Shown: positions 24,382 through 52,412 of the stretch, piece by piece
How the letters are laid out: every line of letters starts with the position of its first letter
Position numbering within the stretch: position 1 is the first letter of the stretch
Source: Curtobacterium poinsettiae
GTDB lineage: Bacteria; Actinomycetota; Actinomycetes; Actinomycetales; Microbacteriaceae
DNA: 64,000 bases
Reading direction: 5' to 3'
Assembly (NCBI RefSeq): GCF_025677645.1
Contig: NZ_CP106879.1
Span: forward strand, 992,001-1,056,000
The notes under the pieces: model-generated
Seen by the model: the letters and a program-made list of their open reading frames with translations, nothing else
The model's database searches: none
What the model was told of the DNA's origin: nothing
Program-made: the position numbers and the translations under genes

Positions 24382-25002
24382 ATGACCCCCAGTCCCACCC
24401 TCCCGACGGCGTTCATCGCCCCGGCAGCCGTCGTGTCGCCCTCGGCGGACGTCGCTCCCGGAGCCCGCATCTGGGACGACTCCCACGTCGAGGCGCACGC
24501 GTCCGTCGGCAGCGAGACCCTCGTCGGTCGCGGCGTCACGATCGGAGCCGGGGTCCGCATCGGTGCTCGCTGCAAGGTCCAGAACGGGGCTCTCGTCTAC
24601 GGACCGGCGGTCGTCGGCGACGGAGTCTTCATCGGACCCGGTGCCGTCCTCACCAACGACAACACTCCGCGGGCGATCAACCCGGACGGCTCCGTGCAGG
24701 ACGCCGACGACTGGCGGCCCACGGCCGTCGTCGTCGAGCACGGTGCGTCGATCGGGGCCGGGGCGCTCTGCGTCGCCCCCATCCGCATCGGCCGGTGGGC
24801 GATGGTCGCGGCCGGCGCCGTCGTCGTCCACGACGTCCCGGACCACGCGCTCGTCGCCGGGGTCCCCGCGCGCCGCATCGGCTGGGTGAGCCGGACCGGC
24901 CGACGGCTGGCGCAGGTCGACGACCACACGCTGGTCTGCACCGAGACCGGTGACCGCTTCCTCCACTCCGAGACCACCGACACGATCGAGGCCATCCGTT
25001 GA
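24382..25002 (+). CDS. Left-handed beta-helix N-acetyltransferase (WbpD-like)
   Basis: Acyltransferase of 206 residues built from hexapeptide repeats (GVTIGAGVRIGARCKV, GVFIGPGAVL, GASIGAGALC and IRIGRWAMVAAGAVVVHDVP). The fold and length match WbpD/WlbB, which acetylate the 3-amino group of UDP-2-acetamido-3-amino-glucuronate. The N-terminal phrase FIAPAAVVSPSADVAPGARIWDDSHVEAHA and the loop TNDNTPRAINPDG are as in that family. It begins the rightward operon and its stop overlaps the next start (TTGA). Pathway neighbours encode the aminotransferase, oxidase and dehydrogenase of the same route. Confidence 0.88.
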   Translation: MTPSPTLPTAFIAPAAVVSPSADVAPGARIWDDSHVEAHASVGSETLVGRGVTIGAGVRIGARCKVQNGALVYGPAVVGDGVFIGPGAVLTNDNTPRAINPDGSVQDADDWRPTAVVVEHGASIGAGALCVAPIRIGRWAMVAAGAVVVHDVPDHALVAGVPARRIGWVSRTGRRLAQVDDHTLVCTETGDRFLHSETTDTIEAIR

Positions 25003-26096
25003 CCACCACACTCGAACTCATCCCCGCGGCGAAGCCCCTCATCGGCCTCGACGAACGCCGCGCCGTCGATGCCGTCCTCGAAAGCGGCGGTCTCGCGCAG
25101 GGCCCCGAGGTCGCCGCCTTCGAGCGCGAGTTCGGCGACGTCCTCGTCGCCGGAGCCTCGGTCACCGCGGTCAACAGCGGCACCGCTGCACTGCACCTGG
25201 CGCTCGTCGCGCTCGGCATCGGTCCGGGTGACGAGGTCATCGTGCCGTCGTTCACCTTCGCCGCCACGGCCAATGCCGTCCGACTCGTCGGCGCCGAGCC
25301 GGTGTTCGTCGACATCGATCCCCTGACCTACTGCGTCGACCCGGCCGCCGTCCGCGCTGCGGTCACCCCGGCGACCCGGGCGGTGATGCCGGTGCACCTC
25401 TACGGACACCCGGCCGACATGACCGCGATCGCGCGCATCGCCGAGGAGCACGACCTGCTCGTGGTCGAGGACGCTGCGCAGGCGCACGGAGCCCGGTGGG
25501 CGGGCACGCGCGTCGGCAGTTCGTCCGACGCCGCGGCGTTCAGCCTCTACCCCACCAAGAACATGACCGCCGGCGAAGGGGGCATGGTCTCGACCCGCGA
25601 CGCCGCGGTCGACCGCATGCTCCGGCTGCTGCGCAACCAGGGCATGGAGCAGCGCTACGCGAACGAGGTCATCGGTTTCAACGCGCGGATGACCGACATC
25701 CACGCCGCGATCGGGCGCGTGCAGCTCCGCAAGGTCCTGGGGTGGACCGCGCAGCGGCAGGCGAACGCCGCCTACTTCAGCCGCGAGCTCGACGGCGTGG
25801 TGACGCCGACGACCGATCCGCGGGCAGAGCACGTCTTCCACCAGTACGTCGTACGGGTGCCCTCGGACCGCGACGGCTTCGCGGCCGCACTCCGCTCCGA
25901 GTTCGGGATCGGCTCCGGCGTCTACTACCCGACCCCCGTGCACCGGCTCCCGTCGTTCGGGCACGACCTCGACCTGCCCGAGACGGAGCGTGCGGCGTCC
26001 GAGGTCCTCGCGCTGCCGGTGTACCCGACCCTCACGCTCTCGCAACTCGACCGGGTCGTCGAGGCCGTCAACACCCTCGCCGGGGCCGGACGATGA
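24999..26096 (+). CDS. DegT/DnrJ/EryC1/StrS aminotransferase (WbpE-like)
   Basis: PLP-dependent sugar aminotransferase, 365 residues. The Schiff-base lysine is K187 in YPTKNMTAGEGGM; the NSGTAALHLAL and EDAAQAHGA motifs that hold the cofactor are intact. In the WbpB-WbpE couple it would convert the 3-keto sugar into the 3-amino sugar, which the upstream acetyltransferase then acylates. The TTG start overlaps the upstream stop by four bases, and the stop overlaps the next ATG by four. Confidence 0.92.
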   Translation: MTTTLELIPAAKPLIGLDERRAVDAVLESGGLAQGPEVAAFEREFGDVLVAGASVTAVNSGTAALHLALVALGIGPGDEVIVPSFTFAATANAVRLVGAEPVFVDIDPLTYCVDPAAVRAAVTPATRAVMPVHLYGHPADMTAIARIAEEHDLLVVEDAAQAHGARWAGTRVGSSSDAAAFSLYPTKNMTAGEGGMVSTRDAAVDRMLRLLRNQGMEQRYANEVIGFNARMTDIHAAIGRVQLRKVLGWTAQRQANAAYFSRELDGVVTPTTDPRAEHVFHQYVVRVPSDRDGFAAALRSEFGIGSGVYYPTPVHRLPSFGHDLDLPETERAASEVLALPVYPTLTLSQLDRVVEAVNTLAGAGR

Positions 26097-27109
26097 GCGG
26101 CGTGCTGCGGGCCGGGGTGATCGGCCTCGGGATGATGGGGCGGCACCACGCCCGGGTCCTCCGGTCGCTCGAGGGGGTCGAACTCGTCGGCGTCGCCGAT
26201 GCCCTCGGTGACCAGCACGACGTCGCCCAGGGCGTGCCGGTCGTCCGGTCGGTCGGGGAGCTCATCGCGCTCGGCCTCGACACCGCGGTCGTCGCGGTGC
26301 CCACTGCGCACCACGAGACCGTCGGTCTGGAACTCGCCGCGGCGGGGGTGCACGCCCTGATCGAGAAGCCCGTCGCGGTCGACGGTCCGGCTGCGGCGCG
26401 CCTCGTGGGCGCGTTCGACCGCGCCGGACTCGTCGGCGCGGTGGGGCACATCGAGCGGTACAACCCGGCGTTGCAGGCACTGCGGCAGCGGCTCGACGCC
26501 GGCGAGCTGGGCGACGTCTACCAGATCGTCACGCGTCGACAGGGGCCCTTCCCTGCACGGATCGCGGACGTCGGCGTCGTGAAGGACCTCGCCACGCACG
26601 ACATCGACTCGACGTCGTGGATCGCCCGGTCACCGTTCGTCCACGTCGGTGCGCTCGCGGGGACCAAGAGCGGGCGCCCCCACGAGGACCTCGTCACCGT
26701 CACCGGTCGCCTGGCCGACGGCACGCTGACCTCGCACCTCGTGAACTGGCTCACCCCGTACAAGGAGCGCCTGTTGATCGTCACCGGTGACCGCGGCACG
26801 TTCGTCGCCGACACCCTCACCGCCGACCTGACCTTCCACGAGAACGGCACCGTCCAGACCGAGTGGGACCAGGTCGCCGCGTTCCGGGGTGTGTCCGAGG
26901 GGGCCAGCACCCGGTTCGCCATCAGCAAGCGCGAGCCGCTCCTGGTCGAGCACGAGGCGTTCCGCGACGCCGTGCTCGGGCGGCCGTCGGACATCGTCAC
27001 CCTCCGCGACGGCCTCCGGACGGTGCTCGTCGCCGAGGCCGTCCTCGAGTCCTCGCGGATCCAGCAGACCGTGCAGCTCGGCACGGACGCCGAAGGAGCA
27101 GCAGCATGA
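26093..27109 (+). CDS. Gfo/Idh/MocA family oxidoreductase (WbpB-like)
   Basis: NAD-dependent sugar oxidoreductase of 338 residues. The N-terminal Rossmann motif is GVIGLGMMGRHHARVL; the catalytic EKP (LIEKPVAVDG) and the following GHIERYNP and KDLATHDIDSTSW segments are typical of the family. Predicted role: C3 oxidation of UDP-GlcNAc uronate, as in WbpB. ATG 26093 overlaps the aminotransferase stop (ATGA); the open frame from 25496 is a shadow of the aminotransferase gene. Confidence 0.9.
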   Translation: MSGVLRAGVIGLGMMGRHHARVLRSLEGVELVGVADALGDQHDVAQGVPVVRSVGELIALGLDTAVVAVPTAHHETVGLELAAAGVHALIEKPVAVDGPAAARLVGAFDRAGLVGAVGHIERYNPALQALRQRLDAGELGDVYQIVTRRQGPFPARIADVGVVKDLATHDIDSTSWIARSPFVHVGALAGTKSGRPHEDLVTVTGRLADGTLTSHLVNWLTPYKERLLIVTGDRGTFVADTLTADLTFHENGTVQTEWDQVAAFRGVSEGASTRFAISKREPLLVEHEAFRDAVLGRPSDIVTLRDGLRTVLVAEAVLESSRIQQTVQLGTDAEGAAA

Positions 27110-28413
27110 ACGTCGTCGTCGTCGGTCTCGGCAAGATCGGGCTCCCGCTCGCCGTCCAGTACGCACGGTCCGGTGCCCGCGTCACGGGTCTCGACGTCGC
27201 GAGCGGGGTGGTCGACGCGGTGAACGCCGCGACCGAGCCGTTCCCCGGCGAGCACGGGCTCGCCGACGGCCTGCGTGAGGTCGTCCCCGCGGGGCGGCTC
27301 CGTGCGACCACTGACGCCGCGGCAGCGATCCCCGGCGCCGACGTCGTCGTGGTCGTCGTGCCCCTCTTCGTGGACGCCGACGGCATCCCCGACTTCGGCT
27401 GGATGGACGCCGCCACCGACACGATCGGCGACCACCTGCGACCCGGCACCCTGGTCGCGTACGAGACGACGCTGCCGGTCGGTACGACCCGTGGTCGCTG
27501 GGCACCCCGGCTCGAGGCCCGCTCCGGACTCCTCGAGGGGCAGGACTTCCACGTCGTCTTCTCGCCGGAGCGGGTCCTGACCGGCCGGGTGTTCGCCGAC
27601 CTCCGGCGCTACCCGAAGCTCGTCGGTGGTCTCTCCGACCAGGGCTCGGCGCGCGGCCGGGCGTTCTACGAAGCGGTGCTGCAGTTCGACGAGCGCGACG
27701 ACCTCGGCCGGCCGAACGGCGTCTGGGACCTCCACACCGCCGAGGCCGCCGAGCTCGCGAAGCTCGCCGAGACCACCTACCGCGACGTCAACATCGCGCT
27801 CGCGAACGAGTTCGCCCGGTTCGCCGAACGGCAGTCCATCGACATCGCCGCGGTCATCGACGCGTGCAACTCCCAGCCGTACAGCCACATCCACCGTCCC
27901 GGGATCGCGGTCGGCGGTCACTGCATCCCGGTGTACCCGCGGCTGTACCTCTGGAACGACCCGGAGGCCACGGTCGTCCGTGCCGCTCGTGCCAGGAACG
28001 CCGCGATGCCGGCCCACGCGGTCGACCTCCTCGGGCGCCTGCACGGGGACCTGCGGGGCCAGCGGGTCGTCGTCCTCGGTGCCGCCTACCGTGGCGGCGT
28101 GAAGGAGACCGCGTTCTCCGGGGTCTTCGGCACCGTCGACGCGCTCCGGGCGCACGGCGCAGTGGTGACCGTGTCCGACCCCCTGTACGCCGACGTCGAA
28201 CTCCGCGGTCTCGGCTTCGAGCCCCACGCCGACGGTGAACCGGTGGACGCGGCGGTCGTGCAGGCCGACCACGCCGAGTACGCGACGTGGGACGAGTCCC
28301 GGCTCCCCGGCGTCCGCACGGTCGTCGACGGACGACGGGTCCTCGACGTCGAACGGTGGGCATCCACCACGGTGACCGCGATCGGTGCGCCGCCCGTGGT
28401 CCCCGTGGCCTGA
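27106..28413 (+). CDS. Nucleotide-sugar 6-dehydrogenase (WbpA-like)
   Basis: UDP-sugar dehydrogenase of 435 residues with the three family domains: Rossmann VVGLGKIGLPLAVQYA at the N-terminus, a central helical domain, and the C-terminal UDP-binding domain. The catalytic cysteine is C273 in GGHCIPVYPRLY; the family's usual GGHCIPVDP is altered to VYP, consistent with UDP-GlcNAc dehydrogenases. GGAG and the ATGA overlap with the upstream gene support ATG 27106. It would make the uronic acid that the upstream enzymes then modify. Confidence 0.92.
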   Translation: MNVVVVGLGKIGLPLAVQYARSGARVTGLDVASGVVDAVNAATEPFPGEHGLADGLREVVPAGRLRATTDAAAAIPGADVVVVVVPLFVDADGIPDFGWMDAATDTIGDHLRPGTLVAYETTLPVGTTRGRWAPRLEARSGLLEGQDFHVVFSPERVLTGRVFADLRRYPKLVGGLSDQGSARGRAFYEAVLQFDERDDLGRPNGVWDLHTAEAAELAKLAETTYRDVNIALANEFARFAERQSIDIAAVIDACNSQPYSHIHRPGIAVGGHCIPVYPRLYLWNDPEATVVRAARARNAAMPAHAVDLLGRLHGDLRGQRVVVLGAAYRGGVKETAFSGVFGTVDALRAHGAVVTVSDPLYADVELRGLGFEPHADGEPVDAAVVQADHAEYATWDESRLPGVRTVVDGRRVLDVERWASTTVTAIGAPPVVPVA

Positions 28414-28417
28414 CGCC

Positions 28418-29680
28418 GTGCGGTCCTCGCCACGACGGCGGCTCCCGGCGATCGCGACGATCCTCGTCGGCACGGTCCTCGGCCAGGGTCTGGTCGTGGC
28501 GATCTCACCGCTGCTGACGCGGCTCTACACCCCGGCGGACTTCGGCACGCTCGCGGTCGTCACAGCGGTCGCGAGCATCCTCGGAGCCGGTGCGACGCTC
28601 GGCACCGACCGTGCACTGGTCGTCGCGCACGACCGGGCGACGACCAGCGCGCTGGTCGCACTCGGTCTGTTCTCGACGCTGATCGTCGGCGTCGGCACCG
28701 CCGGGGTCGCCTGGGTCCTCCGCGGCGACGCGGCACGGTGGTTCACCGCACCGGCCCTCGAGGACCTGTGGTGGACGGTCCCCGTGACGGTCGTCGCGGT
28801 GGGGGCGCAACGGATCGCCTCCGCCGTGCTCGCGCGGCGGCAGCAGCACCGGTCCATCGCCGTGCGCAACGCCTGCCAGGGCATCGGCCAGTCCGTCTGG
28901 AACGTGGCGATGGCCGCGGCGGGTCCGGTCGGGTTGGTGGGCGGCCTGGCGGTGGGCCGGATCGCGGCCGTGCTCGGGATGGTCCGGTTCCGGCGAGGCG
29001 ACGCCGAGCGGACCACCCCTCGGTCGCTCACGGCCGCCGCCCGTCACCACCGGCGGTTCCTCGTCATCACGCCGTGGTCCTCGATGCTGAACGTCGTCGG
29101 CCAGCAGGCGCCCGGCTTGCTCATCGCGGCGCTGCACGGCAGCGTCGCCGCAGGCTTCGTCGCCCTCACGATGCGGGTGCTCGGTGCTCCGGTCGGCATG
29201 GTCGCGGACGCCACCGCGCAGTACGCCGCCGGGGCGTTCGGACTCCGCATCCGGTCGGGTGATCCGGTGCGCCGGCTCGTCCTGCGGCTCGTCGTGCGTC
29301 TCGCCACCGCGGGTGCGGTCGCGGTACTCGTCGTCGTGCTGCTCGGACCCGCCGTGTTCTCGACCGTGTTCGGTGCGGAGTGGGCGGTCTCCGGCACCTA
29401 CGCGCAGGTCCTCGTCCCGGCGTTCGCGGTCCAGGTCGCCGCATCGCCGGTCACGCAGGTGCTGTCGATGCTGCAGCGGCAGGGTGCGCAGCTGACGTGG
29501 GACGCATCGCGTCTCGTGGTGTGCGCCGCCGCGGTGCTCGTGCCCTCCGTGCTCGGGGCCCCGATGCCGGTCGTGCTCGTCGCGCTCGCCTCGGCGATGA
29601 CCGTCTCCTACGCGGCGGTCCTGCTGCTCGTGGTGCGAGCGACCCGCCAGCACGACGAGATGCTCGGTGTGGTGCCGTGA
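28418..29680 (+). CDS. Polysaccharide flippase-like membrane protein (Wzx type)
   Basis: Membrane protein of 420 residues with 12 or more helices and the N-terminal signature of MOP-family polysaccharide exporters (SPLLTRLYTPADFGTLAVVTAV). It probably flips the lipid-linked repeat unit across the membrane. GTG 28418 is right after the dehydrogenase stop; GTG 28385 is an in-frame alternative inside the upstream gene, and neither has a convincing ribosome-binding site. The rest of the pathway, with Wzy and Wzz, is encoded on the opposite strand 4 kb downstream. Confidence 0.88.
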   Translation: MRSSPRRRLPAIATILVGTVLGQGLVVAISPLLTRLYTPADFGTLAVVTAVASILGAGATLGTDRALVVAHDRATTSALVALGLFSTLIVGVGTAGVAWVLRGDAARWFTAPALEDLWWTVPVTVVAVGAQRIASAVLARRQQHRSIAVRNACQGIGQSVWNVAMAAAGPVGLVGGLAVGRIAAVLGMVRFRRGDAERTTPRSLTAAARHHRRFLVITPWSSMLNVVGQQAPGLLIAALHGSVAAGFVALTMRVLGAPVGMVADATAQYAAGAFGLRIRSGDPVRRLVLRLVVRLATAGAVAVLVVVLLGPAVFSTVFGAEWAVSGTYAQVLVPAFAVQVAASPVTQVLSMLQRQGAQLTWDASRLVVCAAAVLVPSVLGAPMPVVLVALASAMTVSYAAVLLLVVRATRQHDEMLGVVP

Positions 29681-29752
29681 GTGGACCGGTCCGCTGGAAT
29701 GCAACATGTAGATAACTCGCGCGGGTGCCGGGCCGCCCCGTAGTTTCGCTGC

Positions 29753-30930
29753 ATGGCCCCTCGACCCCGCCCGTTCGACATCGTCCATGTCTCGAGCGCC
29801 CACCCGTGGACCGACAACCGAGTGCACCTCCGTGCTGCGGCGAGCGCGGCGCGTGCCGGGTACCGCACGGCGTTGGTCGCCGTCGCTGCCGCCGGTGCCG
29901 GCCCTGAAACGGACTGGCACCTCCCCGACCCCGAGACGGGGGTCTACGTCCGACGCATCCCGGCCCGGCGTCGCGGGCGACGGGTCCTGGTGTCCTCGGT
30001 GCAGGTCATCGGGGCGGCGCTCTCGTCGCGGGCGCCGATCGTGCACCTGCACGACCCCGAACTGCTCTGGGCGCTCCCGCTCCTGCGGGTGCTGCACCGG
30101 ACGGTGGTGTACGACGCCCACGAAGACCTGCCGGAGCAGGTGCGGGGCAAGGAGTACCTCGGCCCCGTCGCCCGCCGTGGCAGCACGGTGGCGGCGCACG
30201 CCGCAGTGGCCCTGGCACGCCGGTCACGCACCGTGGTGGCCGCGACGCCAACCATCGCACGCCGCTTCCGCGCCGACCGGACCGTCCTGGTCCGGAACGT
30301 CCCACGGCTCCGTGCCCAGGACACCGACGCCCCGCCAGCCGCTGCTCGTGGTCAGGTGGCCGTCTACCTCGGCTCGATGAGCCGCGACCGGGGGATCGAC
30401 GTCCTGACCGGGGTCGCGGCGTCACCCGGGCTCCCGGACGGCTGGCGCGTGGTCACCGCCGGTCCGATCGACTCGGCGGTCGACCGCGTGCGTTCGACGC
30501 ACTGGTCGACACCGGGCGCATCGACCACCGGGGCGTCCTGGCCCCGCACGCGGCCCGCGACCTGTTGGTGACCGCCCGCGTCGGGCTCCTCCCACTCCTG
30601 CCGACGCCCGCCTACGCGGCGTCGATCCCCACCAAGCTGTTCGAGTACCTGGCGGCCGGACTGGCGGTCGTCGCGACCGACGTCCCGCTCTGGCGCGAGC
30701 TGCTCGACGGCGCCGACTGCGCGACGTGGGTGCCACCGGGTGACCCGGAGTCCGTCGTGGCCGCGCTCCGCCGGTACGACAGCGATCCTGAGCTGCTGCG
30801 GCGGCACGCCGAAGCCGGCCGCGCCCTGGTGCTCGAACGCTTCCGGTGGGACCACGAAGAGCACGTCCTGCTCGACCTGTACCGGTCGCTGTCCGGCGCT
30901 CCGCCGATGCCGGAAGCCGTCGGGCGGTGA
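29753..30930 (+). pseudogene. Glycosyltransferase interrupted by a -1 frameshift
   Basis: A GT4-like glycosyltransferase split over two frames. The first part (29753 to about 30490) starts MAPRPRPFDIVHVSSAHPW and runs to GPIDSAVDRVR. The second part resumes as FDALVDTGRIDHRGVLAPHA and continues to 30930, including PTKLFEYLAAGLAVVATDVPLW. Adding one base near 30491-30494 restores one protein that aligns end to end with the intact paralogue at 33913-35055. It is therefore a recently broken gene, a sequencing error or, less likely, programmed frameshifting. The downstream beta-helix gene overlaps its stop by four bases (GTGA). Confidence 0.85.
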
Positions 30931-32336
30931 CGCCGCTCCCGCCACCCCGGTCGGTCGTCAGCCGACGGGGTGCGCTGTTCGGCGCGGCCGGAGCGATCCC
31001 CGCAGCGCTGCTCGCCACCGGAACCCGGTCGGCCGCCGCGTCCGGACGCTCGACTCCCGCGCCGGCGGACACGGCCCGGATGGTGACCGACGCCGGGGTC
31101 GGCCGGTTGCAGGACGCCGTCGCGGCCACCGACGCGGGTGCCGTGCTCGTCGTGACCCGGCACTGGGTGTTGTCCGAGCCGCTGCGGATCGACCGCGCGA
31201 TGACGATCCGGTTCGTCGGCGGATCGCTCTCCACCACGCGCGACATCGACGTGCTCGTCGTCGCTGCGTCGGACGTCACCATCATCGACGCGGTCCTCCG
31301 TGGTTCCGGGTCGGACCACTCCGGGCTCGGTCGGGGGATCCACGTCGTCGGCACCGTCACACGGCCGTTCCACGACGTGCGGATCCTCGGCGCGGACATC
31401 CGCGACTTCTCCCACGACGGTGTCCTCCTCGACCACTGCGCCGCGTTCACCGTCGCGGACTGCGTCATCGCCGACGTCGGCTACGCCGGAGTGCTCATGT
31501 TCTCCTGCACCGACGGCACGGTGCGTGGCAACCGCATCGCCCGGGTGACCCAGCCTGCGCCCTACCTGAACTCGTACGGCATCGAAGCCGTCCGCGCGAC
31601 CACCACCGGGCTCCTCGGCGCACCGCGTTCGGCCCGGGTCGTCATCGCGGACAACCACGTCTCCGACGTCCCCGCGTGGGAGGGCATCGACACCCACGGC
31701 GGGCAGTCCATCGCGATCCTCCGCAACCTCGTGGAGAACTGCCGGGTGGGGATCGCCGTCGTCCCCTCGAAGGACGAGTCGAACGCCGGCGCCACGAAGT
31801 ACGCGCCCCTCGACTGCTCGGTCATCGACAACGTCGTCCGCCGGACGACGTCCGGCCCCGGGTCCGGCATCGTCATCCGCGGCGCGGGCGAGACCGTCGG
31901 TGACCCCGCCGAACGGGCGAACGGCATCGTCCTCCGCAACACGGTGTCGGGGTACGGAGACGGTGACCGCGACGGGGCCGTCCTCGTGTACCTGACGCGG
32001 CATCTGATCGTCGCGCACAACCACTGCCCGGGTGGCGTCCGTCGCGGGCTCTCCCTCTACCACTCGAACGACGGCATCACGCTCGTCGGCAACCGGATCG
32101 CGGGGCTGCGGCGACAGGGCACTGCCGCATCGGTCGCGATCGACATCCGCGCCACCGAGAACCGCGGGCACCTGGTGGGGAACCGGTACGAGGGCAGTGT
32201 CGAGAGCGGTGCCGTCTACGGGGTGCTGTGCCGTCAGACGGCCAACGACCTGGTGCTCGTGGACAACGACTGGGCCGCGACGACGACCGCGGTCGTGGCG
32301 GGTGCCGGCGCGGTGCTCCGGATCCGCGAGGGCTGA
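30927..32336 (+). CDS. Tat-exported right-handed beta-helix protein (paralogue 1)
   Basis: Predicted secreted protein of 469 residues. The N-terminus has a twin-arginine motif (S12-R-R-GALF) and an Ala-rich hydrophobic core, so export through Tat is likely. The rest is built of short repeated strands of the parallel beta-helix type (FHDVRILGADIRDFSHDGV, NRIARV, NLVENCRVGIAVVPSKD), as in pectate lyases and polysaccharide-modifying epimerases or lyases. The phrase VPAWEGIDTH is shared with the protein at 48933-50300. GTG 30927 overlaps the glycosyltransferase stop. It may cut or modify the polysaccharide made by this locus. Confidence 0.85.
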   Translation: MTPLPPPRSVVSRRGALFGAAGAIPAALLATGTRSAAASGRSTPAPADTARMVTDAGVGRLQDAVAATDAGAVLVVTRHWVLSEPLRIDRAMTIRFVGGSLSTTRDIDVLVVAASDVTIIDAVLRGSGSDHSGLGRGIHVVGTVTRPFHDVRILGADIRDFSHDGVLLDHCAAFTVADCVIADVGYAGVLMFSCTDGTVRGNRIARVTQPAPYLNSYGIEAVRATTTGLLGAPRSARVVIADNHVSDVPAWEGIDTHGGQSIAILRNLVENCRVGIAVVPSKDESNAGATKYAPLDCSVIDNVVRRTTSGPGSGIVIRGAGETVGDPAERANGIVLRNTVSGYGDGDRDGAVLVYLTRHLIVAHNHCPGGVRRGLSLYHSNDGITLVGNRIAGLRRQGTAASVAIDIRATENRGHLVGNRYEGSVESGAVYGVLCRQTANDLVLVDNDWAATTTAVVAGAGAVLRIREG

Positions 32337-38409: not shown

Positions 38410-38437
38410 GAGGAGCCTCCGGTCGGGATGTGGCACC

Positions 38438-42340: not shown

Positions 42341-42474
42341 GTGCATCTTTCAGGACAAGCCGCGCGACGGCGGCTGTGCGGGAGGGAAGCACGCGGGCGA
42401 CGATGAGCGCCGCGGCATGTACATCCAGAATATCATGTGAAATACACATACTGGTGCGACACTGCTTACTGGGA

Positions 42475-42594: not shown

Positions 42595-44463
<1,869 letters not shown>

Positions 44464-44465
44464 CG

Positions 44466-45125
44466 ATGACGGATCCCAAGGACAACGTGCCCGAGGAGAG
44501 CGAGCCCCAGGTCGAGGGCGACGCCACCAACGCGCAGGAGCCCGAGGACCTCATCGAGGCGGAGGGGCCCGACGTCGAAGTGCCGACGGACGGCCCCGCC
44601 GCCGGGGGCCCGGCTGCGGACGCGGCGAACGACCTCTCCCCGGAGGACGAGGCCCTGCTCGCCGACGCCGCCCGCGGCATCGCCGAGGACAAGCTGAGCA
44701 CCGAGGACCGCGACCTGGTCGCCGAGATGCGTGCGGACATGCTCCGTGCGCAGGCCGAGCTGGTGAACTTCCGGAAGCGCGTCGAGCGTGACCGCGAGGC
44801 GAACCGCGAGGTCGCCATCGCCGAGGTCGTCCGGGCACTGCTCCCCGCGCTCGACGACCTCACCCGTGCCGAGGCTCACGGTGACCTCGCCGAGGGTCCG
44901 ATGCAGGTCATCGGCCAGAAGATCCGCGGGGGCTTCGAGAAGTTCAAGCTCGTGCAGATCGGCGAGAAGGGCGAGGCGTTCGACCCGAACATCCACGAGG
45001 CGATCGTCCAGCTCCCCACACCGGGCGCCACCGGACAGACCGTCGCGGACGTCGTCGAGCCGGGCTACAAGCTCGGTGAGCGCGTGCTCCGCGCGGCCAA
45101 GGTCGCGGTGGCGGTCCCGGCCTGA
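44466..45125 (+). CDS. grpE: Nucleotide exchange factor GrpE
   Basis: DnaK nucleotide-exchange factor, 219 residues. A long acidic, disordered N-terminus (about 75 residues rich in Glu, Asp and Pro) precedes the coiled-coil dimer helix (AEMRADMLRAQAELVNFRKRVERDRE) and the C-terminal beta-wing with the signature NIHEAIVQLPTPGA. It starts two bases after the dnaK stop. It belongs to the heat-shock operon. Confidence 0.96.
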   Translation: MTDPKDNVPEESEPQVEGDATNAQEPEDLIEAEGPDVEVPTDGPAAGGPAADAANDLSPEDEALLADAARGIAEDKLSTEDRDLVAEMRADMLRAQAELVNFRKRVERDREANREVAIAEVVRALLPALDDLTRAEAHGDLAEGPMQVIGQKIRGGFEKFKLVQIGEKGEAFDPNIHEAIVQLPTPGATGQTVADVVEPGYKLGERVLRAAKVAVAVPA

Positions 45126-45166
45126 GCCGGGTCCCCGTGGCGACGACAGAAGAAGGCAGGTGATCC

Positions 45167-46171
45167 ATGGCCAGTCAGGATTGGTTCGACAAGGACTTCT
45201 ACAAGGTCCTCGGCGTGTCCAAGGACGCCTCCGACGCCGAGCTGAAGAAGACGTACCGGAAGCTCGCGCGGCAGTTCCACCCGGACTCCAACCCGGGTGA
45301 CGCCGCCGCCGAGAACCGATTCAAGGAGATCAGTGAGGCGTACTCGGTGCTCTCCGACAAGGAGCAGCGTCAGGAGTACGACCAGGTCCGTGCCATGGGG
45401 TCCGGCGCTCGCTTCACCGCGGGTGGCGGAGGCCAAGGCGGGTTCGAGGACGTCTTCGGCGGGATGTTCGGGCAGCAGGGCGGCGGTGGACAGCGCGTCC
45501 GCTTCGGCCAGGGTGGCGCGGGCGGTGCCGGGGGGTTCGAGGACATCCTCGGCGGGATGTTCGGCGGCGGCGGTGGCTTCGGTCAGACCTCCGGCGGCTA
45601 CCGCGGCTTCGGCGGGCCGACGAAGGGTCGTGACGTCACGGCGTCGACGACACTCGACTTCACGACGGCCATCGCCGGTGACACCGTCAAGCTGTCGCAG
45701 GGCAACGGCCGGCCGGTGAACGTCCGGATCCCCGCGGGGGTCGCGGACGGGCAGAAGATCCGATTGCGCGGGCGCGGCGAACCCTCGCCCGACGGCGGGG
45801 AGTCCGGTGACCTCGTGGTCCAGGTGTCGGTGCGCAAGCACCCGGTCTTCGAGCGCGACGGGCTCAACCTGCGCGTGGACGTCCCCGTGACGTTCACCGA
45901 GGCGGCGCTCGGCGCGACGATCGAGGTGCCGACGCTCGGTGGTTCGCCCGTGAAGCTCAAGGTCGCTCCCGGCACGCCGTCGGGTCGCGTCCTGCGCGTC
46001 AAGGGCCGCGGCGTCACGACCAAGAACGGCACGGGTGACCTGCTCGCGACCGTCCAGGTCGCGGTGCCGTCCCACCTGTCGGACAAGCAGCGCGAGGCCG
46101 TCGAGGCGCTCGCGGCCGCTCTGCCCGACGAGAACCCTCGCGAGGACCTCCTCGCGAAAGCGCGTGACTAG
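45167..46171 (+). CDS. dnaJ: DnaJ-type co-chaperone lacking zinc finger
   Basis: J-protein of 334 residues. The J-domain (residues about 9-75) has the HPD motif at FHPDSNPG; a Gly/Phe-rich linker follows (two copies of GGFEDxxGGMFG). The C-terminal substrate domains are DnaJ_C-like (GRDVTASTTLDFTTAI and VRIPAGVADGQKIRLRGRG). No CxxCxGxG zinc-binding repeats are present, so this is a type-II, CbpA-like protein although it sits in the dnaJ position. AAGGCAGGTGATCC precedes ATG 45167. Confidence 0.95.
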   Translation: MASQDWFDKDFYKVLGVSKDASDAELKKTYRKLARQFHPDSNPGDAAAENRFKEISEAYSVLSDKEQRQEYDQVRAMGSGARFTAGGGGQGGFEDVFGGMFGQQGGGGQRVRFGQGGAGGAGGFEDILGGMFGGGGGFGQTSGGYRGFGGPTKGRDVTASTTLDFTTAIAGDTVKLSQGNGRPVNVRIPAGVADGQKIRLRGRGEPSPDGGESGDLVVQVSVRKHPVFERDGLNLRVDVPVTFTEAALGATIEVPTLGGSPVKLKVAPGTPSGRVLRVKGRGVTTKNGTGDLLATVQVAVPSHLSDKQREAVEALAAALPDENPREDLLAKARD

Positions 46172-46193
46172 CGTCACGCCAGCACAGCAGTAG

Positions 46194-46254
46194 AACCGGT
46201 CTGGAGGAACGGTGCGGCTCCGTCAGGAAGCCGCACCGTTCCTCCAGACTGGTT
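46194..46254 (+). terminator. Long hairpin between dnaJ and hspR
   Basis: Arms 46194-46219 and 46229-46254 pair over 26 bases with a single mismatch and a 9-base loop. It contains CTGGAGGAACGG and its complement. There is no T-run after it. It probably attenuates transcription into hspR or protects the upstream message. Confidence 0.7.
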
Positions 46255-46288
46255 CCAGGACCCCGCGGACGACGGAAAGGAACGCGCC

Positions 46289-46708
46289 ATGACCGACATG
46301 GACGAGAACTCGCCCGTCTTCGCGATCGCGGTGGCGGCGGAGCTCGCCGAGATGCACCCGCAGACGCTGCGCCAGTACGACCGGCTCGGCCTGGTCGTGC
46401 CGGGGCGCACCCGTGGTGGGTCCCGCCGCTACTCCATGCGCAACGTCGCGCAGCTGCGCGAGATCGCGCGCCTCGGCTCCGAGGGGGTGTCGCTGGAGGG
46501 GATCCGGCGGGTGCTCGACCTGGAGAACGAGAACAAGGAACTCCGCGACCGGGTGCGCGAGCTCGAGTCGGCGTTGGCCGACCAGCTCATCAACCGTCCC
46601 GGTGCGCGCGTGTTCGCGGCGACGACGACGGGGGCTGCGGTGTCGCTGCGCGCCGGCGCACGACCCCAGCGGAACACGCAGATCGTCCTCTACCGCGGGC
46701 CGCGCTGA
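46289..46708 (+). CDS. hspR: Heat-shock repressor HspR (MerR family)
   Basis: MerR-type regulator of 139 residues. The N-terminal winged helix (VFAIAVAAELAEMHPQTLRQYDRLGLV, then RTRGGSRRYSMRNVAQL) and the coiled coil after it (ENENKELRDRVRELESALAD) are as in HspR. It binds HAIR operators, in complex with DnaK in known species, and represses its own operon and clpB. Such sites occur in front of both dnaK and clpB in this window. The long hairpin upstream could set its level apart from the chaperones. Confidence 0.93.
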   Translation: MTDMDENSPVFAIAVAAELAEMHPQTLRQYDRLGLVVPGRTRGGSRRYSMRNVAQLREIARLGSEGVSLEGIRRVLDLENENKELRDRVRELESALADQLINRPGARVFAATTTGAAVSLRAGARPQRNTQIVLYRGPR

Positions 46709-46773: not shown

Positions 46774-48699
46774 TCAGCGGGTGTTCGCGTACACTGTGTA
46801 GAGCGACGACGTGTACTGCACGTCGGACACCGAGACCTCGAGCTTGAACTCGAACTTCGTTGCGCCACGCGACACGGCGCGCTGGAAGCTCCAGTCACCG
46901 TCCTCGGACACCGCGACCGTCCCCGGCACGATCTGCGTCCCCGAGGCGTTGAGCACGCGCATGGTCGCGCCGGCCGGACCGGAGCCCTGGAACGTGTTCA
47001 CCTCGCCCGGGTCGACCGCGCGTGTGTCGACGATGATCGGATCGAGGCCCTCGTTCGCGTCGATGCTGAACAGGTCGGAGGTCTCCGGGCCCTGATCGTC
47101 CTTCGTCTGCTCGATCACGAACTCGAACTTGATCGCGCCGGCCGTCACCACGCGGTCGAAGCTCCAGTTGCCGTCCTCGTCGACCGTGCGGGTACCCGGC
47201 ACGATCTGCGTCCCCGACGCGTTGAGCACGCGGTACGACGCCCCCGGTTCGCCGGTGCCGGAGAACCGGTTCGAGACCCCGGGGATCACGGTCTCCGGAC
47301 CGGAGAGACGCGCGGGCGTCAGGCGTCCGGTCGCGCCCGGGTTGATGGTGACCTCGGCGACCGTGGTGTTCGCGCCCTTCGACTGCTGGACGACCCGGAG
47401 CACGTGCTCGGCGCGGTCGAGGTCGTCCGTCTCGACGAACCAGCGACCGCTCGGCAGGACGCCCTCGTCGCTCCGGCCGACGACGCGGTCCTCGTCGCCG
47501 GACACGTCGAGGACCTCGACGGAGGATCCCGGCTCTCCACCGCCCGACATCGAGACCGGCCCACCGCGGTGCGCGTCGCCGTCCTCAGGGGTGCTGATGC
47601 TGACCGCTGCGCCGTAGTCGACGTCACGTTCCACCTCGTGCTCGGTGTCGCGCGCGCCGTCGATGAACTGCGCCCCCGTCACCCGGAGCACCCCGCCGGT
47701 CCCCGGCGCCGGGATCGTGATGCTCCAGGAACCGTCGTCCGGGTCGGCGGTGGCGGACGTACCGAGCTGGGCTCCCGTCGGACCGAAGAGCCGGACCTCG
47801 GCACCGGGCTGTGCCGTGCCGAAGGCGGTCGCGGGTTCGGTGCGCTCGTCGGGCTCGATGGTCGTCTCCATCGTCAACGGCGCGGCCGTGACGGTGACGT
47901 CGAGGTCGGCCGTGGCGGTGCGTTCGGTGCCCTCGTACTGCTCGAGGGCGAGCGTGCTCGTGCCGAGCGGCAGGTTCGTCACCCGTGCGCTCCACCGCCC
48001 GTCGGCGTCGATCCGCTGCGGGTTCCGACCGTCGATCAGCACGGTGGCCGACGGCGTCCCGGTGCCGGAGAGCTGCGCGCTGCGGGACAGGACGTCGACC
48101 GAGGCGACGGACGCGCTGAAGGACGGCACGAAGTCCTCGATCGTGGGCACGCGGTCGGCGACGTTCTGTGACTGCAGCCGCATCACGCCGTCGGTGTTGA
48201 ACAGGCCGAGGAAACCGCGGTTGTACGTCGACTGCAGGCCGGTGCCGACGGGGTTGTTCGAGCCCGAGTTCGCAGCCGTCCGGAACCGTTGCTTGGCGTC
48301 CCCGGGCTCGCACGTCTCGAGGGTGACCGGGGAGGAGCTGGTGATCGATGCGGTGCCGGCCGTCAGGCAGAGCTCCGGCGCGGAGACCGGGCGGACGGTG
48401 GTGACCGCGCCGGGGGCGGGGATGACCCACCGCACGGCGGCGGCCCGGGCGGCTTCGAGGGTGCGGGTGCGGTTCGCCGGGAGTTCCTGCCCGGCGGCCA
48501 CGACCGTCGGTGAGCCGAAGGTCGGCGTCGTCGGGTCGCCGGCGAAGGCGGACGTCTCCGTCACCAGGGGACCGACCAGGGTGGGGACTGTCTCGTGCGT
48601 CGATGCGGCCTGTGCCGGTGTCAGGCCGGCAGCAGCGATCGTCAGGGCCGTCAACCCTGCGGCACCGACTGCCGTGATCGAACGGGGTGTTCTCGTCAT
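46774..48699 (-). CDS. Secreted repeat protein B (Ig-like domains)
   Basis: Extracellular protein of 641 residues, related to protein A. The signal peptide is MTRTPRSITAVGAAGLTAL with a cut near AQA-A. After a globular N-part (to about residue 200) come Ig-like domains of the types GTGTPSATVLIDGRN, FGTAQPGAEVRLFGP and GGGEPGSSVEVLDVS. The end has two copies of the 90-residue repeat (YRVLNASGTQIVPGT and MRVLNASGTQIVPGT). No anchor motif or C-terminal helix is visible. ATG 48699 is chosen as the start immediately before the signal; the open frame continues upstream without one. Confidence 0.85.
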   Translation of the reverse strand: MTRTPRSITAVGAAGLTALTIAAAGLTPAQAASTHETVPTLVGPLVTETSAFAGDPTTPTFGSPTVVAAGQELPANRTRTLEAARAAAVRWVIPAPGAVTTVRPVSAPELCLTAGTASITSSSPVTLETCEPGDAKQRFRTAANSGSNNPVGTGLQSTYNRGFLGLFNTDGVMRLQSQNVADRVPTIEDFVPSFSASVASVDVLSRSAQLSGTGTPSATVLIDGRNPQRIDADGRWSARVTNLPLGTSTLALEQYEGTERTATADLDVTVTAAPLTMETTIEPDERTEPATAFGTAQPGAEVRLFGPTGAQLGTSATADPDDGSWSITIPAPGTGGVLRVTGAQFIDGARDTEHEVERDVDYGAAVSISTPEDGDAHRGGPVSMSGGGEPGSSVEVLDVSGDEDRVVGRSDEGVLPSGRWFVETDDLDRAEHVLRVVQQSKGANTTVAEVTINPGATGRLTPARLSGPETVIPGVSNRFSGTGEPGASYRVLNASGTQIVPGTRTVDEDGNWSFDRVVTAGAIKFEFVIEQTKDDQGPETSDLFSIDANEGLDPIIVDTRAVDPGEVNTFQGSGPAGATMRVLNASGTQIVPGTVAVSEDGDWSFQRAVSRGATKFEFKLEVSVSDVQYTSSLYTVYANTR

Positions 48700-48932: not shown

Positions 48933-50300
48933 ATGCGCAGCCGAACACCGGGCGGTGGCCCTGCGAGCAGCTGCACCGTTCGCCGCCGCACGCTGTTGAC
49001 GGCGGCCGCGGCGCTGGCGGGTGGAGCTGCGCTCCTGGGTGCGGTGGGGAGGACGACCGCGACGAGAGCCGCCGACGACGCTGACCAGGACGTCCTGCAG
49101 GACGCGCTGCGGGCCGTTCCCCTCGGCGGTGCGATCGTCATCGACCGCGAGTGGGTGCGTTCCCGGAGTCTCGTGGTGGACCGCCCCGTCCGCATCCGGT
49201 TCACCGAGGAAGGACGTATCAGGATGGTCACCACGGCCACCGCAGTGGTCGTCACGGCGTCCGGTGTCGAGATCGTCGATGCCGACATCCGCGGAGTCGG
49301 CAGCGAGAGTGGGGGCGAGGGCCACGGGATCGCCGTCATGGGTGACCGGCTGGCACCACTCCGCGGGGTCGTGGTGCGAGGCGGTCGGTTCCGTGACCTG
49401 CCGCACGACGGCGTCCACCTCGAGTACTGCGATCACTTCCGGGTGACCGGGACGACGATGGACCGTGTCGGGTACGCGGGGGTGCTCGGCGTCGGTGTGG
49501 TGGACGGGGTCATCGACCGCAACCGGGTGTCCGACGTCCGGCAGCCCCGGGGTCGCGTGAACTCGTACGGGATCGCGCTGACCCGGGATGCGACCGCGAC
49601 GCCCGACGTCACGCGGCGGTCGGCGCGTGTCCGGGTCGTGGACAACCACGTCAGCGGCGTCCCGGCGTGGGAGGGCATCGACACCCATGCCGGCGAGGGC
49701 ATCGAGATCCGCGGGAACGTCGTCACGGCGTGCCGCGTGGGCATCGCGGCCGTGCCGTCGAAGGACCCCGACGACCGGACGCAGACGGGTGTTGCGCCGA
49801 TCGACCTGGTGATCGCCGACAACGTCGTCACGCGCGGCGCCGGGCTGCCCGCAGGCTCCGGGATCCTGGTCAGCGGTGCCGGCACGACCGTCGGATCGAC
49901 GCGTCCCCGCGCGACCGGACGGGTCATCGGGAACGTCGTGACCGGATACGGAGGCGGCGGGGAAGCAGGCATCCTGGTCAAGCTGACGCGTGGCATGGTG
50001 CTCGACGGCAACCGCGTGCGGTCCAGTGCCGACAACGCGATCTGCCTCGTCCACTCGAACGCGGCCGCAGTCGCCCGGAACAACTCCGTCCGTGGTGTGA
50101 GCGCCACCCGCGTCGGCGTGAACATCCGCGCCGGTGCGAACGACGGATCCATCCACCACAACGCCTTCGCGGTGACGCAACCCGCGCTGGCGGTCGCGGT
50201 GCGGTTCGGGGATCCGGACAACCGGTTCCACGTGTCGGACAACGACTGGGGCAACGCTCGGGTGCACCTCGCGCGCGGTGGCGCGGTCGTGACGAGCTGA
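48933..50300 (+). CDS. Tat-exported right-handed beta-helix protein (paralogue 2)
   Basis: Predicted secreted protein of 455 residues, paralogous to the one at 30927-32336. The twin-arginine signal is TVRRRTLLTAAAALAGGAAL. The mature part has parallel beta-helix repeats; the same block as in the paralogue occurs (VPAWEGIDTH, then CRVGIAAVPSKD). ATG 48933 follows GGGGAGGGG at a good spacing; the open frame from 48783 is not needed. It lies divergent from repeat protein B and convergent to repeat protein C. Possible role: lyase, epimerase or binding protein for the exopolysaccharide; no catalytic residues could be assigned. Confidence 0.85.
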   Translation: MRSRTPGGGPASSCTVRRRTLLTAAAALAGGAALLGAVGRTTATRAADDADQDVLQDALRAVPLGGAIVIDREWVRSRSLVVDRPVRIRFTEEGRIRMVTTATAVVVTASGVEIVDADIRGVGSESGGEGHGIAVMGDRLAPLRGVVVRGGRFRDLPHDGVHLEYCDHFRVTGTTMDRVGYAGVLGVGVVDGVIDRNRVSDVRQPRGRVNSYGIALTRDATATPDVTRRSARVRVVDNHVSGVPAWEGIDTHAGEGIEIRGNVVTACRVGIAAVPSKDPDDRTQTGVAPIDLVIADNVVTRGAGLPAGSGILVSGAGTTVGSTRPRATGRVIGNVVTGYGGGGEAGILVKLTRGMVLDGNRVRSSADNAICLVHSNAAAVARNNSVRGVSATRVGVNIRAGANDGSIHHNAFAVTQPALAVAVRFGDPDNRFHVSDNDWGNARVHLARGGAVVTS

Positions 50301-50309
50301 TCACGGCGA

Positions 50310-50346
50310 CGGGCCCGGCCGGGGAGGTGCACCACGGCCGGGCCCG
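50310..50346. terminator. Bidirectional hairpin terminator
   Basis: Arms 50310-50321 and 50335-50346 (12 perfect base pairs, 13-base loop) between the beta-helix gene and the convergent gene for repeat protein C. Confidence 0.65.
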
Positions 50347-50351
50347 CCCCG

Positions 50352-52412
50352 TCAGGATGCGCGGATGCTGAACACGCGGCTGGTGTCGACGGTGCCGTCG
50401 AGTGTCTGTTCGATGACGAAGTCGAACTTCGTGGCTCCCGTGGAGACGACGCGCTGGAAGCTCCAGTCGCCGTCCTCGTCCGCGGTGACGGTGCCGGGGA
50501 CGATCTGTGTGCCCCAGGCGTTGCGGACGCGGATCGAGGCGTTCGGGGTGGCGGTGCCGGTGAACGTGTTCAGGACGCCCGGGGAGACCGACGACGTCGC
50601 GACCGATGCATCCCGGAGGGCTGCCGCCGCCGCGATGCTGAACACGCGGCTGGTGTCGACGGTGCCGTCGAGTGTCTGTTCGATGACGAAGTCGAACTTC
50701 GTGGCTCCCGTGGAGACGACGCGCTGGAAGCTCCAGTCGCCGTCCTCGTCCGCGGTGACGGTGCCGGGGACGATCTGTGTGCCCCAGGCGTTGAGGACGC
50801 GGATCGAGGCGTTCGGGGTGGCGGTGCCGGTGAAGGTGTTCAGGGCGCCGGCCGAGACGGCCGTCGTCTGCACCGTGGCCGGTTCGATCGGCTGGGTCTC
50901 GTCCGTCGCGGGGGTGAATGCGATGTCCTGCATGACCGAGGTCCGGCCGTCGGCCGTCGTCTGCGTGAAGGTCACCTCGTACCCGTCGCGGCTGGTCAGC
51001 TCGGCGGACGCCGACCACGCGGCGACGCCGGAGCGGGTCTGTACCGCCCGGGTACGGAAGAGCTCTGCGCCGTGCTGGTCCGTCGCGACGACCGTGGCGC
51101 CTGCCTCGGCGGAGCCGCTGAACCGACGTGTGCCGGGCGTGTACTCGTTCTGCTGATGGATGCCGTCGACCTGCAGCAGGCGCGGGAGTGCCAGGCGTTC
51201 GGACGTCGCGGAGTAGTGCTGTCCGTTGAAGGCGAGCGCGACGAGGTCGAGTTGTCGCCCGGTGTGCGCCTGGCCGATCGTGAAGCTCCACCCGGCCGTG
51301 TCGGGACGGATGTGCGCGACGACGACATCGCCGTCGAGCACCTGCAGCCCGGCCGTCCTCTTGACGTCGCCGACGAGCTGGATCGATCCGTTCGGCAGGA
51401 CGTTGACGTCGCGGACACCCGGCGCCTCGACGTCCGGGTCGACGGCGAGCGGCAGGAGTTCGGCCCGTGTCGCGGGGGACTCGGAGCCGTCCTCGGAGAT
51501 CCCGACGACCTCGAGCGCGGCACCGAGGTGCTCCTGCGGGACCGTCGCCACGAACTCCCCGTCGACGACCCGTGTCTCGCCGACGCTCGTGCCCCCGGCG
51601 GTGCGCACCTCGACAGCGACCGTCCGGTCGTCGACCGCGCCCCACAGGGTGAAGTCCCCGTCGAGGCGGCGCTCCGACGGCTGCACCTGCGGAGCAGCAG
51701 GGGTCGCACCGGTGCCTTCCGAGAAGACCACCGGTTCGATCGTGCTCTTCCGGCCGTCCGGCAGCGTCTGGCTGAAGGTGATCGTGTGGTCGCCCGCGGT
51801 CAGGTCGGCTTCGGCGCTCCAGGTACCGACGGCCGAGCGGGCCGACGGGACCTCGGTCCTGAAGAGCGTGGTACCCGTGACGGTGTCCGTCGCGGTGATC
51901 GTCGCGCCGACGGTCGCCGTGCCCTCGAACCGCTTCGGGCCCGGGACGAACCGGTTCTCCGCCCGCAGTCCGTCGACCCGGAGCGTGCGCGGGAGCGGGA
52001 TGCGCTCCGTCCGTGTCGCCGTGCCGTCGGCTGCGATGTGGACGCGGACGAGGTCGAGACCCGTGTCGCGGTACTTGTCGAGGGCGCGGAGGAGGAACAA
52101 GCCCTGGCCGCCGGCCCATCGGCTGACCGTCTCGTCCCCGTCGAGCAGGTACACGTCGTCGGTCCCCGCGAACCCCGTCACCGCGCGTGAACCGGCGAAC
52201 GTGTCCTCGATCCTCGAGATGGCGGGGGACTCGAGCAGGGGGTCGACCGGGAGGTCGGGGACGAACACCGCGTCGGACGCGGACGGTCGGGACGAGGTCG
52301 GGGCGTCCGCGCTCGCGGCGGTCGCCACGTCGGGGGTCAGGACGCCGAAGGCGAGTGATGCGGTGACGATGCCGCAGGCGACTGCGGCGCTCCGGAACGG
52401 AGAGGGTGCCAT
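50352..52412 (-). CDS. Secreted repeat protein C
   Basis: Extracellular protein of 686 residues. The signal peptide MAPSPFRSAAVACGIVTAS ends near ATA-A. The N-terminal 110 residues are unique (FAGTDDVYLLDGDE). Ig-like modules follow, with two copies of an R-F-x-G-(S/T)-A motif (KRFEGTATVGATITATDT and RRFSGSAEAGATVVATDQ), and the end carries two nearly identical 90-residue repeats with IRV-NAWGTQIVPGT. The variant W replaces S of proteins A and B. ATG 52412 has AAGGAG upstream. No anchor is seen. It probably acts with proteins A and B at the cell surface. Confidence 0.86.
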   Translation of the reverse strand: MAPSPFRSAAVACGIVTASLAFGVLTPDVATAASADAPTSSRPSASDAVFVPDLPVDPLLESPAISRIEDTFAGSRAVTGFAGTDDVYLLDGDETVSRWAGGQGLFLLRALDKYRDTGLDLVRVHIAADGTATRTERIPLPRTLRVDGLRAENRFVPGPKRFEGTATVGATITATDTVTGTTLFRTEVPSARSAVGTWSAEADLTAGDHTITFSQTLPDGRKSTIEPVVFSEGTGATPAAPQVQPSERRLDGDFTLWGAVDDRTVAVEVRTAGGTSVGETRVVDGEFVATVPQEHLGAALEVVGISEDGSESPATRAELLPLAVDPDVEAPGVRDVNVLPNGSIQLVGDVKRTAGLQVLDGDVVVAHIRPDTAGWSFTIGQAHTGRQLDLVALAFNGQHYSATSERLALPRLLQVDGIHQQNEYTPGTRRFSGSAEAGATVVATDQHGAELFRTRAVQTRSGVAAWSASAELTSRDGYEVTFTQTTADGRTSVMQDIAFTPATDETQPIEPATVQTTAVSAGALNTFTGTATPNASIRVLNAWGTQIVPGTVTADEDGDWSFQRVVSTGATKFDFVIEQTLDGTVDTSRVFSIAAAAALRDASVATSSVSPGVLNTFTGTATPNASIRVRNAWGTQIVPGTVTADEDGDWSFQRVVSTGATKFDFVIEQTLDGTVDTSRVFSIRAS
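50364..50903 (-). repeat. Two near-identical 270-bp coding repeats
   Basis: The stretch beginning at 50364 recurs at 50634 with only a few base changes over more than 200 bases (for example TTGCGGACG versus TTGAGGACG). Copies this alike point to very recent duplication or gene conversion. The right boundary is approximate. Confidence 0.85.

Follow-up and report, generated by a model that had tools for sequence, protein, structure and literature searches.

The dnaK site of Curtobacterium, a genus of plant- and soil-associated bacteria, usually carries a variable polysaccharide locus, and many of the secreted immunoglobulin (Ig)-like repeat proteins encoded around it, here called R proteins, end in modules whose type follows the polysaccharide genes. 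The window analyzed here is a stretch of 64,000 nucleotides of Curtobacterium poinsettiae (positions 992001-1056000 of contig C1 in the 3.76 Mb genome G000). It contains one variant of this locus, called type A, which combines genes for the synthesis of a polysaccharide, a pair of beta-helix proteins, and three R proteins, R1, R2, and R3, sharing the repeat GTQIVPGT (Table 1). On the evidence of sequence comparison, we think it somewhat probable that the C-terminal modules bind the polysaccharide of their own genome and hold the R proteins on the coat, matching modules being swapped together with the locus.

The repeat GTQIVPGT is present in eight copies with zero mismatches to its degenerate codon pattern, whereas 0.02 copies are expected by chance at up to two mismatches. 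The copies are spread 4+2+2 over three minus-strand open reading frames (ORFs), which confirms an earlier interpretation of the window made from its letters (hereafter the sequence-only reading) in which three secreted proteins shared an unusual repeat. In R1, R2, and R3 a single module measures about 90 amino acids, Sec-type signal peptides are recognizable by eye, and the Pfam cut-off for Big_6 (PF17936) is exceeded, as it is in one R protein each from locus types B, D, and E and from G279, a genome of another genus. Pfam searches (E<=0.01) revealed neither SLH domains nor CWB2 repeats in R1-R3, and solved structures gave only weak sequence matches to the repeat (best E 0.048). Its relatives in named genomes came from Curtobacterium at 9 of 9 loci; among 199 genomes of the family, the best match outside the genus reached only 1.5e-7. 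R-like ORFs of at least 250 amino acids, sought in fetched stretches only, were found in those of 60 of the 66 genomes of the genus. From 120 such ORFs we removed 5 with masked C-terminal letters, 5 whose C-terminus was judged antisense, frame-shifted, or spurious, and one remote protein of G202, leaving 109; a second search round, run with the complete set, brought in antisense ORFs and was not used. An LPXTG-like sortase motif occurs in the last 45 amino acids of none of the 109, and a C-terminal membrane helix in 2.

In the 56 of 66 genomes that had enough locus genes and R proteins, the C-terminal 85 amino acids of the R proteins were compared with the genes present in the locus, clustered at 50% identity and without the R genes; 11 pairs lacking a core distance were set to the mean. 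Given core distance, the C-terminus is associated with the locus (partial Mantel r=0.318, p=0.0002, the permutation floor), whereas its association with core distance given the locus is small (r=0.081, p=0.12). The N-terminus is associated with core distance given the locus (r=0.192, p=0.005), and with the locus given both core distance and the C-terminus it has r=0.022 (p=0.31). In these sequence comparisons the C-terminus follows the polysaccharide genes and the N-terminus follows phylogeny more. The association persists without type A (r=0.282, p=0.0002, 43 genomes) and at clustering cut-offs of 35, 50, 65, and 80% (C-terminal r of 0.388, 0.318, 0.356, and 0.243; N-terminal r of 0.123-0.168). 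With a distal core as control, nine genes of the flanks and the dnaK operon have r between -0.07 and 0.11, against 0.325 for the C-terminus; dnaK, grpE, dnaJ, and hspR show -0.06, -0.01, -0.07, and 0.06, and seven of the nine have p above 0.08. Gene models were crude (ORFs based on GC content at third codon positions), and fragmented contigs lower locus similarity.

The same trend is visible in pairs of genomes. Among the 143 pairs with core identity above 90%, mean C-terminal similarity is 0.21 when no locus cluster is shared (81 pairs), 0.26 when little of the locus is shared (45), and 0.62 when much is (17). It is still 0.51 in the 20 pairs with core identity below 87% that share much of the locus, and 0.16 in pairs sharing no locus genes. 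The nearest C-terminal neighbor belongs to the same locus type for 67 (78%) of the 86 proteins from types with at least two genomes, against a shuffled mean of 13% and a maximum of 30% over 2000 shuffles. Individual proteins show the break between their two parts. R1 of the window is 67% identical to R1 of the type B genome G226 over 406 N-terminal residues, and their C-terminal score is 0.10; relative to type A genomes G204, G249, and G250 the values are 46-50% for the N-terminus and 84-91% for the C-terminus, and relative to the more distant type A genomes G212 and G217, 33-34% and 44-48%. Likewise, R3 has 76% N-terminal identity with G251 at a C-terminal score of 0.15, and 52% N-terminal and 66% C-terminal identity with type A G250. 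Within the window, R1, R2, and R3 have one module type (0.52 for each pair) on N-terminal parts that are barely alike (0.04-0.10). More generally, R proteins of the same genome (72 pairs) have a mean similarity of 0.28, compared with 0.12 for 3369 pairs from genomes sharing no cluster, although these pairs are not independent. Finally, G243 has a type A locus plus a partial second locus sharing type E clusters, and its R proteins are of both module types.

The sequence-only reading had linked the repeat to the beta-helix and polysaccharide genes, and this link is strongly supported. The repeat (E<1e-20), the beta-helix (E<=0.001), and WbpB (E<=1e-20) occur in the identical 13 of the 66 genomes, and none has repeat proteins at this strength without the other genes; since profile searches scored a limited number of candidates per genome, absences are not absolute. 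For two of the 13, G207 and G231, gene content does not place them with type A, and their assignment was based on beta-helix and WbpB. With the threshold set at E<=0.001, 51 of 66 genomes match the repeat profile, the weaker matches, in 38 further genomes, being to other Ig modules, a number of which adjoin dnaK. Separately, the stretch L097 (G202:C1:2915001-2935000) encodes an Ig-repeat protein with six matches to the type A repeat profile.

The type A cassette requires 10 changes on a core tree of 61 genomes that includes 12 of the 13 (G215, G219, G231, G239, and G260 were left out; the tree is built on genes close to the dnaK locus, with 12 rows less than half filled). In a four-group table of 31 rows it again requires 10, at least 7 of them forced by starred branches; with shuffled labels the mean is 9.9, and 335 of 500 shuffles are as low. 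With these 10 changes, no fewer than for shuffled labels, descent of the type A genomes from one common ancestor is rejected as a simple explanation. Starred branches yield 9 independent contrasts (sign test p=0.004; the gene sets are identical, so that one 0/1 row was entered twice). Given the 10 changes and 9 contrasts, type A comes and goes on this phylogeny as one package, moving or being lost as a unit. In G257 and G246 the dnaK operon lies outside the cassette, and the genes for the polysaccharide, the beta-helix proteins, and the R proteins form an uninterrupted group; G243 has the same layout apart from additional R genes found beyond dnaK. Elsewhere in the family (249 genomes), the beta-helix has one further match (E 5e-125), in G279. 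Within 17 kb, this genome has the dnaK operon and genes for a methyltransferase, the beta-helix protein, a glycosyltransferase, Wzc, a UDP-GlcNAc 2-epimerase, a DUF3060-like protein, and Ig-repeat proteins, with no WbpABDE seen up to the contig end. Its locus (L209) has a gene arrangement like that of the window and a different module.

Limiting the system to the genes first noted proved too narrow, and this was set aside given related layouts across the genus, of which type A is one variant. All 66 genomes have a Wzc relative, and 54 have one at most 16.4 kb from dnaK. Contig ends interrupt the region in six of the remaining 12 (G207, G215, G222, G229, G244, and G256), and the other six have no Wzc in the fetched dnaK region (G163, G225, G228, G234, G237, and G238). 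Four of the latter have no R-like ORF in the fetched stretches, the R-like ORFs of G225 lack a module-type C-terminus, and that of G234 is short and ends in a membrane helix. The dnaK operon itself, whose place between R1 and R2 the sequence-only reading had not mentioned, is a bystander: a role as part of the system was discarded in view of its position outside the cassette in G257, G246, and G243 and its lack of association with locus type. Its orientation is reversed with respect to the flanking genes in G251, G248, G224, G255, G258, G210, and G209, and the site therefore rearranges often. R-like classes MOD 2 and MOD 3, also near dnaK, have C-termini that do not follow polysaccharide type.

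Some module classes go with genes that may serve single decorations. The type D module profile matches at E<1e-20 exactly the 5 type D genomes used to build it, which have an AT3-SGNH acyltransferase cluster in common. At E<=1e-10 it matches exactly 8 more (G205, G211, G226, G227, G232, G236, G241, and G242; best E 1.9e-12 to 7.5e-17). The pyruvyltransferase PF04230 is found anywhere in 31 of 66 genomes and within ~10-15 kb of dnaK in exactly these 8, a correspondence recognized only once the searches were complete and dependent on the E<=1e-10 limit; further PF04230 positions could be hidden in fragmented genomes. The label of this pyruvate class requires 6 changes, and its 6 independent contrasts give p=0.03, with a single label used for both entries. 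In type B, a second profile built from 5 genomes matches 7 at E<1e-40, two of them not used in building, and all 7 carry a pyruvyltransferase cluster, again noticed post hoc; three other type B genomes (G105, G240, and G254) have a different module and no PF04230 match. It is a tentative idea, which we do not consider the likelier case, that the Ig-like modules are polysaccharide readers whose specificity is swapped with coat type down to single decorations. These would be pyruvylation by the PF04230 enzyme of the locus, acylation by the AT3-SGNH enzyme, and the uronic acid together with beta-helix processing. If so, R modules would encode coat chemistry in their sequence, making it possible to predict a strain's coat from its proteins alone.

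The scenario that we favor would run as follows. The Wzx/Wzy-type genes would produce a polysaccharide probably containing a diacetamido-uronic acid made by WbpABDE, which the Tat-exported beta-helix proteins would probably trim or modify. The Sec-secreted R proteins, without LPXTG and normally without a membrane anchor, would bind this polysaccharide through their Ig-like C-terminal modules, and this binding would hold their variable N-termini, which might be adhesins, on the coat; upon exchange of the locus, the matching modules would change along with it. Non-covalent holding is the simplest account of type-specific modules in a set with 0 of 109 LPXTG motifs and 2 of 109 membrane helices. 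The suggestion of the sequence-only reading that the repeat proteins are displayed on the polysaccharide is the best-supported model because the C-terminal modules follow the polysaccharide genes genus-wide, the binding itself being what we infer from that pattern.

A similar pattern could arise by hitchhiking, if R genes pointed their 3' ends towards the locus and exchanged them together with it, by recombination within the conserved N-terminal coding part and with no functional match. R1 of the window does adjoin the locus with its 3' end towards it, the association is stronger for near-side R proteins (r=0.419, p=0.0002, 42 genomes) than for those on the far side, across the dnaK operon from Wzc (r=0.217, p=0.0002, 31 genomes; sides were assigned for 94 of 105 proteins), and the flanks ANK (r=0.111, p=0.012) and g21841 (r=0.075, p=0.035) are weakly associated with the locus. 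However, we regard hitchhiking as quite unlikely: the four genes of the dnaK operon separate R1 from R2 and R3 in the window and give r of -0.07 to 0.06 over the genus, R1-R3 of the window share their module type despite unlike N-termini, type A modules lie outside the polysaccharide cassette in G214, G257, and G207, and the pyruvate-class module of G236 and G242 turned up only at a distance of ~0.7 Mb. The weak signal of the two flanks also counts against a matching of modules and polysaccharides, together with several other results. The N-terminus has some association of its own with the locus given core distance (r=0.132, p=0.001; 0.145, p=0.0005 with the distal core control), and in the far-side set core distance has an effect at least equal to that of the locus (0.262, p=0.001). 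Nearest neighbors mismatch the locus type for 19 of the 86 proteins, many of which are of R-like classes whose C-terminus is not locus-specific. G202 has neither WbpB nor beta-helix, and carries, distant from its dnaK locus, the best of the weaker matches to the type A module (1.2e-17). G205 and G211 share an R3 module and no locus gene cluster, which the pyruvyltransferase present in both would explain post hoc. Moreover, Ig-like modules are not typical lectins. As another alternative, phages or grazers could target both the polysaccharide and the R modules, so that the two diversify side by side under the same selection without contact. The locus switches often, as capsules do (16 changes for four types among 31 rows), and surface structures are commonly phage targets. 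Selection of this kind would not lead one to expect a given module to recur with a given locus type in distant genomes, where locus-sharing pairs reach the C-terminal similarity of 0.51 given above, against 0.16 for pairs that share nothing, and we judge it improbable.

The modules could also bind as we propose and serve another purpose, with R proteins acting as cross-linkers of a biofilm matrix or in kin recognition by gripping the coat of neighboring sister cells. In this respect, 52 of the 109 R proteins carry between two and six modules in tandem, which could bridge chains, and many genomes encode several R proteins. The two R-like proteins that end in a membrane helix in place of modules suit anchoring better, although their number is small; one is from G234, without Wzc in its fetched dnaK region, and the other from G207, which is type A. 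We see cross-linking or kin recognition as unlikely relative to anchoring on the cell's own coat. A last alternative concerns the beta-helix pair, which might be unrelated to the coat, for example NosD-type proteins or a phage remnant. Both proteins exceed the cut-off of Pfam NosD (PF05048), and the closest phage match is a tail spike (30% identity over 63%, E 7e-22). Against this, their NosD TIGR04247 scores of 43.9 and 38.2 bits fall well short of the NCBIfam cut-off of 300, which leaves them outside that family; the beta-helix is present in 13 of 13 WbpB genomes and 0 of 53 others (at most 23 candidates scored per genome); it is also near Wzc in G279, in another genus; and tail spikes themselves are often polysaccharide-processing enzymes. 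That the pair has nothing to do with the coat seems very improbable. The proteins may be, as a guess, polysaccharide lyases, hydrolases, or epimerases acting on the uronic-acid polymer.

Non-covalent anchoring of surface proteins on polysaccharides is already known. In Clostridioides difficile, CWB2 repeats are described as binding the polymer PSII and holding secreted proteins non-covalently (PMC4973711). The likeness lies in tandem repeats and a non-covalent hold on a polymer of the cell wall for which a biosynthesis locus has been proposed, the binding being inferred in our case; the repeat family is another one, and the account given there concerns one polymer, whereas here modules and polysaccharide genes co-vary (PMC4973711). 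SLH domains are reported to bind a secondary cell-wall polymer pyruvylated by CsaB (PMC6030368). Protein display would be tied to pyruvylation here too, as one module class is, except in type D, confined to genomes with PF04230 by dnaK; it differs from the system described there in that the modules are Ig-like Big_6, PF04230 was seen by dnaK in only 8 of 66 genomes, and pyruvylation of the product is a prediction from the genes (PMC6030368). In Listeria, surface-protein anchoring is reported to depend on serovar-specific sugar decoration of wall teichoic acid (PMC7238011), a dependence on decoration as opposed to the matched variation of anchoring repeats proposed here (PMC7238011). The capsule (cps) locus of pneumococcus is described as exchanged between lineages by recombination (PMC4380333). 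As there, a polysaccharide locus switches between lineages; unlike what is described there, the exchanged package includes secreted proteins with type-matched modules (PMC4380333). The R system would thus act like SLH or CWB2 anchoring with interchangeable specificity, as a member of neither family. Among the papers listed by searches of the open-access PMC literature, we found no description of repeat types co-varying with a polymer and nothing on Curtobacterium polysaccharide loci with Ig-repeat proteins. The apparent co-variation across the genus, with swaps at the level of domains, provides natural matched and mismatched pairs for studying how an Ig-like module reads sugar, makes it testable how these actinobacteria keep such proteins on the cell without sortase motifs, and may make Curtobacterium surface coats typeable from sequence.

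Table 1. Features of the type A locus, in positions of the window
Feature	Position	Strand	Basis and remarks
wbpD-wbpE-wbpB-wbpA-like operon	24382..28413	+	Pfam Hexapep, DegT, GFO_IDH_MocA, UDPG_MGDP_dh
Wzx-type flippase	28385..29680	+	Polysacc_synt_3, E 7e-18
GT4 glycosyltransferase, split across two frames	29753..30930	+	C-half above Pfam cut-offs; N-half weak GT4 match
Beta-helix protein 1, Tat-like signal	30954..32336	+	Beta_helix PF13229, E 5.5e-15; start by eye
Wzy candidate	32234..33916	-	position; many hydrophobic stretches by eye
GT4 glycosyltransferase	33913..35055	-	Pfam
GT4 glycosyltransferase	35103..36408	-	Pfam; start approximate
Initiating sugar-phosphate transferase (Bac_transf)	36389..37048	-	E 4.8e-58
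Wzz/tyrosine-kinase fusion (Wzc-like)	37045..38436	-	eps_fam TIGR01007 and Wzz PF02706, both above cut-off
DUF3060 lipoprotein	38533..38961	-	PF11259, E 4e-8; lipobox by eye
R1, secreted Ig-repeat protein	39053..42346	-	four C-terminal GTQIVPGT modules at 39065-40138
dnaK-grpE-dnaJ-hspR	42595..46708	+	conserved operon between R1 and R2
R2, secreted Ig-repeat protein	46774..48699	-	two modules at 46786-47322
Beta-helix protein 2, Tat-like signal	48933..50300	+	PF13229, E 1.1e-11; start by eye
R3, secreted Ig-repeat protein	50352..52412	-	two modules at 50358-50888

The two beta-helix proteins are 42% identical (E=6e-60) and begin with a twin-arginine translocation (Tat)-like RR, recognized by eye, in agreement with their initial description as paralogs with Tat signals. 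They are the only proteins of the genome matched by the beta-helix profile. The motifs WEGIDTH and CRVGIAxVPSK are invariant in nine aligned beta-helix sequences, two of them from the window, and no solved structure is similar in sequence. A plasmid-borne origin was set aside, as the plasmid collection gave no match. A search with Rfam returned no element at gathering scores.

Pfam and NCBIfam confirm the identities of the polysaccharide genes (WbpD/E/B/A-like, Wzx, glycosyltransferases, Bac_transf, and the Wzz/tyrosine-kinase fusion), and the initiating transferase, flippase, and chain-length/kinase protein of Wzx/Wzy-dependent loci are all present. The first operon encodes an N-acetyltransferase, an aminotransferase, a Gfo/Idh dehydrogenase, and a UDP-sugar dehydrogenase, which we take to be the enzymes of the Wbp pathway; it would probably make a diacetamido-uronic acid donor. 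The locus had been called a complete Wzx/Wzy locus; one glycosyltransferase is split, and Wzy is a candidate with no Pfam (E<=0.01) or NCBIfam match, so that the word complete rests on its hydrophobicity and position. Stretches homologous to the Wzy candidate occur in the other type A genomes whose part was fetched (that of G214 was not). In place of the split glycosyltransferase, G204 and G250 have a single ORF of 392 amino acids. The DUF3060 lipoprotein is present as first described, and since 34 of 66 genomes (counting the one studied here) have DUF3060-like stretches in their fetched region, it may belong to the coat locus in general. Outside the window, ~80 kb from dnaK, a second Wzc relative (G000:C1:1118335-1119633) would belong to a second surface-polysaccharide locus; it has counterparts ~70-100 kb from dnaK in many genomes of the genus, several of them with a pyruvyltransferase nearby.

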